Positions 2-1,444 of a stretch of 6,354 nucleotides of DNA are shown here, in pieces (position 1 is the first letter of the stretch; each line of letters starts with the position of its first letter). The notes under the pieces were generated by a model. That model made no database searches and was not told where the DNA came from. It saw nothing but the letters and a program-made list of their open reading frames with translations. The stretch lies in contig JALTZH010000024.1 in NCBI GenBank assembly GCA_027051265.1, forward strand, positions 1-6,354. Direction: 5' to 3'. Source of the stretch: an archaeon. GTDB taxonomy: Archaea; Hydrothermarchaeota; Hydrothermarchaeia; JALTZZ01; JALUTC01. The position numbers and the translations under genes are program-made.

Positions 2-745
2 CCCTATATTAGCAAGGACGACGACAATTTTTACATCATAGACAATCCAATAGTTAAAGATAAGGTCTTCAAGCTTCCAATGATAAGAGCATCAACATGG
101 AAAGGCGTTTTAAGATATGCGGCAATTAAAGTTTTTGAAGAGAAATTTAATAGGAATAATTGGAAGGAATTGAGATTGAGGATTTATAAACTATTTGGAA
201 ATGAAAAAGGAATAGATGATAAAGAAAGTAAGTATTTGGATAAATTCGTTGCCAAAAAAATTTATAACGATAAAGATAAAGCAAAAGATATTAAGGAAGA
301 GTTTAAGAATTATATAAAACAACAAATAGGAAGTTTATACTTTAAAGGAAGATTATTCTTCTATACAACCTTTTTTGATAGAATCTCTTTGGATGTCATA
401 ACTCCCTTAAGTAGAGAAACAAAGACACCTGTAAGAGGACCTATATATTTTGAGATTGTTCCAGAAGAAACAACAGGCATTTTAAGAATTTTCTATTACC
501 CATTCGATTTAGTAGCTAAGGGAGAGTTCGATAAGATTGAAAAAGAGATGAAAGAAGATATGAAATTTTTAACTAAAGCTATATACACGGCCCTTTATGA
601 AATCGGATTCTCAGCTAAGAAAACGAGCGGTTATGGAACAGCTGAAATTGTTGAGGTAAGTGTTACGTGTGGTGCTAAATTAAAAGAGTATGAAAACTGG
701 ATAAGGAAGCTTTTTGAAAATAAAGGTGAAAACAATGACCGATAA
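2..745 (+). CDS. RAMP-superfamily CRISPR-Cas protein, type III (5' truncated by window)
   Basis: This is the C-terminal 247 residues of a RAMP (repeat-associated mysterious protein) subunit. The frame is open from base 2, so the internal ATG at 80 is not the real start. Visible RAMP features are the S-T-W-K-G-x-L-R segment at visible residues 31-38, matching the 'SSxKGxLR' helix of Cas5/Cas7-type RAMPs, and a C-terminal glycine-rich loop at residues 202-212 ([11 protein letters not shown]). Between them, the D-x-I-x-L-D-V-I-x-P and [11 protein letters not shown] stretches resemble Cmr-type RAMPs found in Csx11-containing loci, recalled from family knowledge and not searched. It is probably a structural subunit of the cytoplasmic effector, contacting crRNA or the backbone. 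Which one (Cmr6-, Cmr1- or Csx10-like) cannot be settled without the N-terminus. Its 3' end overlaps the MNT gene by 11 bases, so the two are co-transcribed. Confidence 0.82.
724..729 (+). promoter_or_regulatory. Ribosome binding site AGGTGA for the MNT gene
   Basis: AGGTGA lies five bases before the ATG at 735, inside the end of the upstream RAMP gene. It decides the start: the in-frame TTG at 714 would add seven residues but has no ribosome site at a usable distance. Confidence 0.75.
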
Positions 746-1049
746 AATTGTCAAAATACTCAAGGAGTTCAAGAGTGAGCTATCGAAAATATTGGGCAGT
801 AAGTTAATAGATATTATTCTATTTGGATCTTATGCAAGGGGGGATTTTACACAAGAATCCGATGTTGATGTTCTAATAATCGTGAAAGAAAAGCCAACAA
901 TCGAGGAAGAAAATGAAATTTCAAGGTTATGCTTAAAATTCATTCTCAAATATGGATTCGTTATATCAGCAATAACATATCCAAGAGAATTCTTCAACTC
1001 GAACTCTTCATTTGCAGATGAGGTTAAAAAGATAGGTGTGAAAATATGA
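735..1049 (+). CDS. MNT-type minimal nucleotidyltransferase (MntA-like antitoxin)
   Basis: This 104-residue protein has the polymerase-beta-like nucleotidyltransferase signature: helix-turn G-S-Y-A-R-G at residues 31-36, then S-D-V-D at 42-45, supplying the two metal-binding aspartates D43 and D45. In HEPN/MNT modules, proteins of this kind act as the antitoxin, and studied MntA enzymes transfer AMP from ATP onto the partner HEPN toxin to silence it. The third acidic residue of full nucleotidyltransferases is not obvious: the expected strand after K-Y-G-F reads V-I-S-A-I. This appears common in the subfamily with 'YGxxIS' (recalled, not searched). The ATG at 735 is preferred over the TTG at 714 because of a well-placed AGGTGA. 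The gene overlaps the RAMP gene by 11 bases and shares ATGA with the HEPN gene. The family call is firm; its role as antitoxin here is inferred from pairing. Confidence 0.88.
1034..1038 (+). promoter_or_regulatory. Ribosome binding site AGGTG for the HEPN gene
   Basis: AGGTG ends seven bases before the ATG at 1046, inside the MNT gene. Together with the shared ATGA at 1046-1049 it points to translational coupling, so antitoxin and toxin would be made in linked amounts. Confidence 0.6.
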
Positions 1050-1444
1050 GCAAGCAGGAAGAAATATCCAAGTTAATAGAAAAGGCTGAAAGAAGCTTAG
1101 AAGCTGCAAAGGTTTTGTTCGAAAGAGGTGATTACGATTTTGCAGTCTCAAGAGCATATTATGCCATGTTTTATTGTGCTAAAGCCATGTTACTTACAAA
1201 GAGAATTACGACGAGGAAACACTCTTCAACAATATCGCTTTTCATTGAGAAGTTTGTTAAATCCGGAGAATTTTCGGAAGAATTAGCTTCATATTTAATA
1301 GATGCGTATAGAAAAAGACAAATCGGAGATTATGATGTTTTTATTATTCCTACGAGAAGTGAAGCTAAGGATTTAATAAATAAGGCAGAGGTTTTCATTA
1401 AGGAAGTTAGGAATTATCTTAAGGAGCGTGGTTTTTATGGATAA
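1046..1444 (+). CDS. HEPN-domain protein (putative toxin partner of the MNT protein)
   Basis: This 132-residue, probably all-helical protein matches the HEPN family. A helix at residues 5-26 ([11 protein letters not shown]) is followed by the hallmark [15 protein letters not shown] at 35-49, a K-H-S segment at 58-60, and R89/R91 followed by D95-Y96. HEPN proteins paired with MNT proteins are typically RNase toxins. Here the usual R-x4-6-H catalytic motif is not seen: the equivalent stretch reads R-K-R-Q-I-G-D-Y, with Asp where His is expected, as in the UPF0332-like branch (recalled). It may therefore be a weak or inactive nuclease, or use other residues; Y96 sits where studied HepT toxins carry the modified Tyr. 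The start ATG overlaps the MNT stop (ATGA), and the 3' end overlaps the Cas10-like gene by eight bases. Family assignment is strong; toxicity is unproven. Confidence 0.88.
1421..1426 (+). promoter_or_regulatory. Ribosome binding site AAGGAG for the Cas10/Csx11-like gene
   Basis: AAGGAG is one base from the in-frame GTG at 1428, too close to serve it, and ten bases from the ATG at 1437, which is long but usable. It therefore favours ATG 1437. It lies inside the HEPN reading frame, so translation of the two genes is probably linked. Confidence 0.55.

Follow-up and report, generated by a model that had tools for sequence, protein, structure and literature searches.

We find that a predicted MNT/HEPN toxin-antitoxin (TA) pair is built into the middle of an archaeal CRISPR operon assigned to type III-C, at the junction between the genes for a Cmr6-like RAMP and the large subunit Csx11/Cas10c, and that the same junction recurs as a slot for TA modules in other genomes, where AbiEi/AbiEii can stand in place of MNT/HEPN. 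The specificity of this position, the fusion of TA toxins to subunits of the complex, the existence of a dedicated HEPN lineage and the repeated replacement by other TA modules favour functional coupling over a mere passer-by. Taken together, these comparative data strongly suggest that TA modules are coupled to the III-C complex.

The window analysed here is a whole 6,354-base contig from a 1.46 Mb draft archaeal metagenome-assembled genome. It holds only the middle of the operon, with all genes on the plus strand and both ends open (the RAMP gene at its 5' end and the Cmr3 gene at its 3' end). The gene order is Cmr6-like RAMP, MNT, HEPN, Csx11/Cas10c, Cmr4, Cmr5 and Cmr3, with the following features:

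2..745, + strand: Cmr6-like RAMP, a III-C complex subunit and the left border of the slot (PF03787, 1.1e-14; PADLOC Cmr6, 2.8e-75); 5' end off the contig
722..729, + strand: SD-like sequence aaaggtga of the MNT gene, within the RAMP gene and 5' of the ATG at 735
735..1049, + strand: MNT, minimal nucleotidyltransferase, predicted antitoxin, 104 aa (PF01909 NTP_transf_2, 1.4e-13; PADLOC PDC-S09, 8.6e-27; PDB 9xbd_E, 1.4e-6)
1046..1444, + strand: HEPN, predicted toxin, 132 aa, AF0298-like HEPN-T subfamily (PF05168, 2.9e-26; PDB 9xbd_A, 3.1e-20; 2hsb (AF0298), 3.5e-14)
1421..1426, + strand: SD-like sequence AAGGAG of csx11, within the HEPN gene
1437..4601, + strand: Csx11/Cas10c, the III-C large subunit and the right border of the slot (TIGR02682, 361 bits; PADLOC Cas10c, 2.5e-131, 437.7 bits)
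4588..5724, + strand: Cmr4-like RAMP, backbone Cas7 (TIGR02580, 154.7 bits, cut-off 87)
5731..6120, + strand: Cmr5-like small subunit (PADLOC Cmr5, 6.7e-30)
6123..6354, + strand: Cmr3-like RAMP, start only, running off the contig (PADLOC Cmr3, 6.7e-33)

The Cmr6-, Cmr4-, Cmr5- and Cmr3-like genes are co-operonic; neighbouring genes overlap or are spaced by a few bases. The RAMP gene runs 11 bases into MNT, its last base being 745 and the MNT ATG lying at 735; the end of MNT (1049) and the start of HEPN (1046) share 4 bases (ATGA); and HEPN ends at 1444, past the csx11 ATG at 1437 (8 bases), while an alternative upstream csx11 start, the GTG at 1428, would give a 17-base overlap. At each of the MNT, HEPN and csx11 starts an SD-like sequence lies within the preceding gene. 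The overlaps and reading frames given in the initial annotation are thus correct, and its assignment of the operon to type III stands, with the subtype corrected to III-C and the Cas10 cyclase recognized as lost. This assignment rests on a Csx11 score above the curated TIGR02682 cut-off (249 bits), the PADLOC Cas10c match, the set of RAMPs and the missing GGDD.

In this regard, Csx11 retains its HD residues (H24 D25, H97 and D118), which are invariant across 19 aligned Csx11 sequences, and a motif check did not find GGDD in the palm2 region, so that the palm/cyclase motif has been lost. The sole GGDE of the protein, at residue 1047, was rejected as a cyclase motif, as it falls in a C-terminal tail with pLDDT below 50. 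An AlphaFold2 model of Csx11 (pLDDT 80, pTM 0.83) has its best PDB matches among Csm1/Cas10 structures. It has been reported that III-C loci lack cyclase active sites, matching their lack of known effectors, and that an HD domain is present in half of them (Hoikkala et al., 2024, PMC11229360); III-C is likewise listed among the subtypes with an inactivated cyclase (Makarova et al., 2025, PMC12669027).

Related loci were collected in two ways: a csx11 search of 394 archaeal genomes matched 13, and a collection scan with an alignment of six closer Csx11 sequences gave 52 loci from many phyla; as the loci were found through Csx11 similarity, the sample leans towards Csx11 proteins resembling that of the window. 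Csx11 was not found among the viral contigs searched, and among the plasmids searched only two, both conjugative, carry distant relatives, so the collected viruses and plasmids are not the main carriers of the operon.

The closed genome G110 (Archaeoglobaceae; 2,196,266 bases; locus L012/L081) shows the order RAMP-MNT-HEPN-csx11-cmr4-cmr5-cmr3 with identical 11-, 4- and 8-base overlaps, and has a CRISPR array some 2.7 kb past cmr3. The same RAMP-MNT-HEPN-csx11 order is found in a second Archaeoglobaceae genome (L024). Across the window, L024 and L081, pairwise identity is 78-81% for HEPN, 66-70% for MNT and 62-66% for RAMP and Cmr4, the window HEPN being 78-79% and its MNT 66-67% identical to the other two. 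In the tree the three slot HEPNs group together with support, separate from those of stand-alone pairs. Rough omega values, with dS near saturation, of about 0.04-0.08 for HEPN and 0.07-0.08 for MNT indicate that the pair is under purifying selection. Chance insertion was rejected, since both the position and the overlaps recur, the latter between genomes of different phyla (window and L081). The proposal of the initial annotation that the pair is integrated in the operon is therefore borne out: the gene order it suggested searching for is recovered in L081 and L024, and the pair, far from being absent from all related csx11 loci, keeps its position there. Its remark that HEPN/MNT pairs normally stand alone also agrees with our data, as the nearest other HEPN/MNT loci retrieved from archaeal genomes stand alone, no cas gene being found in the roughly 1.5 kb inspected on each side. 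The source genome carries at least three more HEPN/MNT pairs at other sites.

The position is specific to one junction and is shared by unrelated TA modules. Profiles for HEPN, MNT, AbiEi and AbiEii, four TA families in all, were run over all csx11 loci. A TA module sits at the RAMP-csx11 junction in 10 of the 53 readable csx11 operons and at none of the 174 other internal junctions (cmr1-RAMP, n=46; csx11-cmr4, n=44; cmr4-cmr5, n=42; cmr5-cmr3, n=42; Fisher p=2.4e-7, with no correction for common ancestry). Five slots hold MNT/HEPN: those of the window, L024, L081, L047 (Chloroflexi) and L061 (Hydrothermota), representing three different families. L047 and L061 have HEPNs only remotely akin to that of the window, and in L061 the pair is followed by an AbiEii-like gene. 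The other five hold AbiEi/AbiEii (L082, L043, L049, L029 and L033), with 4-base overlaps throughout in L082. AbiE also lies at the same place in two loci outside these ten, L023, where the RAMP is off the contig, and L067, where csx11 is cut to 41 residues. The identity of AbiEi and AbiEii is confirmed by PADLOC (7e-88 and 2e-77) and Pfam. Thus, the position at which the initial annotation noticed HEPN/MNT does recur, but as a slot for TA modules generally, in which AbiE replaces HEPN/MNT in close relatives. The slot is empty in 43 of the 53 III-C operons; the module is therefore not required, and the pair is best described as an optional, exchangeable part.

As a control, 35 archaeal III-A/III-B loci were inspected, and HEPN, MNT or AbiE lay between cas genes only in L175; in L169, another locus of this set, MNT/HEPN adjoins what is left of a decayed III-C operon. 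Subtypes therefore contrast only weakly (10/53 in III-C versus 1/35 in III-A/B, p=0.04), whereas the contrast between junctions is strong.

Genes of other kinds were also seen between subunit genes. In one archaeal III-C operon (L009:4573-5031 / L089:10421-10879), csx11 and cmr4 are separated by a 152-aa ORF resembling, by eye, a gamma-glutamylcyclotransferase, of which L010 has traces. In the III-C operon of L093, a 699-aa ATPase-looking ORF with the Walker A motif GPNNSGKT (7400-9499, minus strand) stands between the genes for Cmr1 and the RAMP.

Exchange of the slot content can be followed among close relatives. The window, L024, L081, L082, L023, L025 and L026 form one supported Cmr4 clade, with 60-66% identity in RAMP, 63-68% in Cmr4 and about equal likeness in Cmr5 and Cmr3; three of these loci carry HEPN/MNT (window, L024, L081), two carry AbiE (L082, L023) and two carry nothing (L025, L026). 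Presence or absence of a slot module must have changed at least eight times on the Csx11 tree and at least six times on both the RAMP and the Cmr4 trees. Nor does the Csx11 body, swapped in L081 and L025, predict what the slot contains.

Within this group Csx11 itself is a mosaic. Compared with the window, the N-terminal ~880 aa of L081 and L025 are about 14-41% identical per 100-aa bin and the last ~150 aa are 59-71% identical, and the genes flanking these mosaic proteins are as similar to those of the window as in other relatives. The body of Csx11 seems to have been exchanged by recombination.

TA toxins are also found joined to subunits of the complex. In L029 and L033 a single open frame encodes AbiEii fused N-terminally to Csx11, and in L071 a single open frame encodes AbiEii and Cmr1. 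These fusions come from single draft assemblies, in which an indel at overlapping genes is possible, but such an error would be needed three times. No fusion of HEPN or MNT to a III-C subunit was found in the csx11 loci.

Several loci in the wider set combine TA genes with decayed operons. In L067 (511-2800), where csx11 is reduced to its first ~41 residues, the adjoining AbiEi is intact, 90% identical to that of L082 and has an omega of 0.06; here the TA part has outlived the Cas10 gene. The III-B operon of L202 (11254-14091; G021, of the same order as the source genome) has at its end a solitary MNT that shares 77% identity with that of the window, lacks its HEPN and adjoins a gene that looks CARF-like by eye; next come a further MNT/HEPN pair and a III-C Cmr3 that is broken. 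These would be the remains of a III-C operon in which the antitoxin was retained and the toxin lost. In L229 (2981-8831; G002, same class), a decayed III-C operon keeps AbiEi intact, AbiEii truncated and Cmr4-Cmr5-Cmr3, with csx11 deleted, and immediately upstream is an MNT-HEPN pair, the HEPN of which shares 4 bases with a gene judged CARF-like by eye.

A second HEPN/MNT family, with an MNT of about 166 aa and a HEPN carrying an FYG motif, also accompanies III-C operons repeatedly (L024:12884-13781, L082:1712-2621, L202:11498-12398 and L061:243-1171), placed behind cmr3, 5' of cmr1 or within the slot. Outside III-C, the III-B operon of L175 (3892-5549, minus strand; G001, of the window's class) encodes a Cmr1 with an MNT domain fused C-terminally, and after it comes a HEPN-like gene (PF08780) immediately 5' of cas10, an independent link between a nucleotidyltransferase/HEPN module and the type III large subunit.

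These findings allow us to propose a model to which we lean, with modest confidence, over its alternatives: MNT/HEPN would be an exchangeable TA module that serves the III-C complex, to which it is coupled, as a guard or abortive-infection arm. The pair would be co-translated with the complex from a dedicated slot between the Cmr6-like RAMP and Cas10c genes and may be in physical contact with it, and MNT would keep HEPN inactive, probably through nucleotidylation, for as long as operon and complex are intact. Loss of the complex, its inhibition by a phage or its engagement with target RNA would release HEPN, which would then arrest the cell. Such a generic role would let the unrelated AbiEi/AbiEii occupy the slot and the AbiEii toxin become fused to Csx11 or Cmr1 in some lineages. 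The support reaches coupling only, and not a choice among addiction, release on damage and an effector arm.

The last of these can be framed as a reading of its own, doubtful in our judgement, in which the module replaces the lost cyclic-oligoadenylate signal: target recognition would directly switch the nucleotidyltransferase or toxin on, with no part played by addiction. Its probability overlaps with that of the guard or abortive-infection model because the abortive version and an effector arm share their trigger. The loss of the cyclase motif and the lack of known effectors in III-C (PMC11229360) are in line with it, as are the AbiEii fusions to Cas10c itself (L029, L033) and to Cmr1 (L071), the supply of a nucleotidyltransferase by both types of module, and the L175 operon, with its MNT-Cmr1 fusion and its HEPN before cas10. 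However, L175 is a III-B operon, where the cyclase is normally active and the module can be no replacement; the module is absent from most III-C operons, and no HEPN or MNT domain is known as a sensor of the complex.

It is less likely that the modules are selfish hitch-hikers that enter at the 5' edge of csx11, a gene often replaced by recombination, and persist by their addictiveness with no functional link to interference. The mosaic Csx11 bodies of L081 and L025, in which a different N-terminal part is joined to a C-terminal part of the window's lineage, would fit such a scenario; so would the presence of TA modules at operon edges, after cmr3 (L024, L053) or before cmr1 (L074, L071), and the fact that stand-alone HEPN/MNT and AbiE pairs are common and TA modules mobile and abundant in archaea. 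Yet L081 has a swapped Csx11 body with the same HEPN/MNT as the window and L024, the other border of the large subunit, csx11-cmr4, is free of TA modules (0/44), and the toxin-subunit fusions, the identical overlaps across phyla and the dedicated HEPN clade are unexpected for a passer-by.

The proteins themselves bear on how a toxin of this kind might work. MNT carries the nucleotidyltransferase motif GSx10DxD, conserved in its slot homologues. HEPN is a single-domain protein of 132 aa in which only PF05168 scores above cut-off, with no CARF sensor domain; activation by cyclic oligoadenylates was rejected, as there is neither a CARF domain nor a cyclase motif. The nearest solved structures are 9xbd and 9xbc for HEPN, 9xbd containing the MNT as well, and 2hsb. 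HEPN lacks the Rx4-6H motif (RX4HXY) and has R91-Q-I-G-D95-Y96 in its place, so that toxicity through RNA cleavage cannot be assumed. It retains the alternative histidine H59, conserved as in the AF0298 family, where this second histidine has been proposed to substitute as the active site (Anantharaman et al., 2013, PMC3710099).

Homologues differ at the tyrosine position of RxxxDY: 9xbd has Y, 9xbc has F and the L081 HEPN has C (RQIGDC; L081:10157-10528, minus strand). This variation suggests that the residue is being studied as the modified one, yet is not universal; as the L081 HEPN lacks it, nucleotidylation at that residue cannot be universal either.

Quite improbable, finally, is a domesticated, non-toxic regulator, in which HEPN would serve only as the substrate-binding partner of MNT, which would nucleotidylate a Cas subunit or regulate expression of the operon: RQIGDY in place of Rx4-6H and the known ability of motif-less HEPN domains to act as substrate-binding partners (PMC3710099) speak for it, but H59 is retained, motif-less HEPN proteins were reported to be toxic in a genome-scale screen that PMC3710099 cites, and a bona fide TA module, AbiE, occupies the same place.

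Returning to the preferred model of a coupled TA module, we tentatively extend it to III-C as a whole, short of believing it as readily as the model itself: having lost cyclic-nucleotide signalling, these systems may have evolved a plug-in slot for protein TA modules, with the nucleotidyltransferase/toxin held on the Cas10c complex or under its control, and switched when the complex recognizes its target or is lost. If true, this would be a messenger-free arm for programmed arrest with an interchangeable toxin family. A TA slot would explain how III-C could arrest or kill cells despite having no cyclic-oligoadenylate signalling or, alternatively, how it could be protected against loss and anti-CRISPRs, as a protein-based parallel to the CreTA RNA guards. 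The occurrence of two unrelated TA families in one position, one of them fused to Cas10c, makes the link between RNA-guided recognition and TA toxicity testable.

With regard to the literature, the parts are known, and a recurrent exchangeable TA slot was not found described in the literature searched: no account of TA modules inside III-C operons was found in the openly accessible papers covered. An earlier answer to a referee saw no particularly strong link between TA systems and CRISPR loci (Makarova et al., 2009, PMC2701414), and a 2025 review of TA-CRISPR coupling does not mention III-C. A 2026 survey of archaeal defence places AbiE among the validated systems and PDC-M05, a nucleotidyltransferase-HEPN system, among the candidates, and the passages located on them do not describe embedding in III-C.

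Compared with known systems, the operon shares with type III-C (Csx11, MTH326-like) the set and order of subunits, a Csx11 above cut-off and the lost cyclase motif, and differs from the published accounts of this subtype (PMC12669027, PMC11229360) in its TA slot, which these do not describe. The CARF-HEPN effectors Csm6 and Csx1 of III-A/B are likewise HEPN proteins linked to type III operons; the HEPN of the window, in contrast, has no CARF domain, has an MNT partner and is embedded between effector subunit genes, next to a Cas10c without cyclase. With CreTA (PMC9458426, PMC10097628) the proposed model has in common the idea that a toxin penalizes loss or inhibition of CRISPR, but CreTA is an RNA toxin repressed by a crRNA-like guide and type I Cascade, whereas the parts in the window are proteins in a III-C operon. 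The type IV TA system AbiEi/AbiEii has the same slot (L082, L043, L049, L029, L033; also L023 and L067), two genes and a nucleotidyltransferase in common with MNT/HEPN; the protein families are unrelated, the nucleotidyltransferase is the toxin in AbiE, and AbiEii is fused to Csx11 or Cmr1 in three loci. Type VII HepT/MntA also comprises two overlapping genes with MNT first, GSx10DxD in MNT and the HEPN fold, both partners being held in 9xbd. Unlike HepT/MntA, the window has an AF0298-like PF05168 HEPN with RxxxDY and the alternative histidine instead of RX4HXY, its MNT scores under the cut-off of the MntA equivalog NF047752 (31.3 bits, cut-off 60), and the pair lies inside a cas operon.
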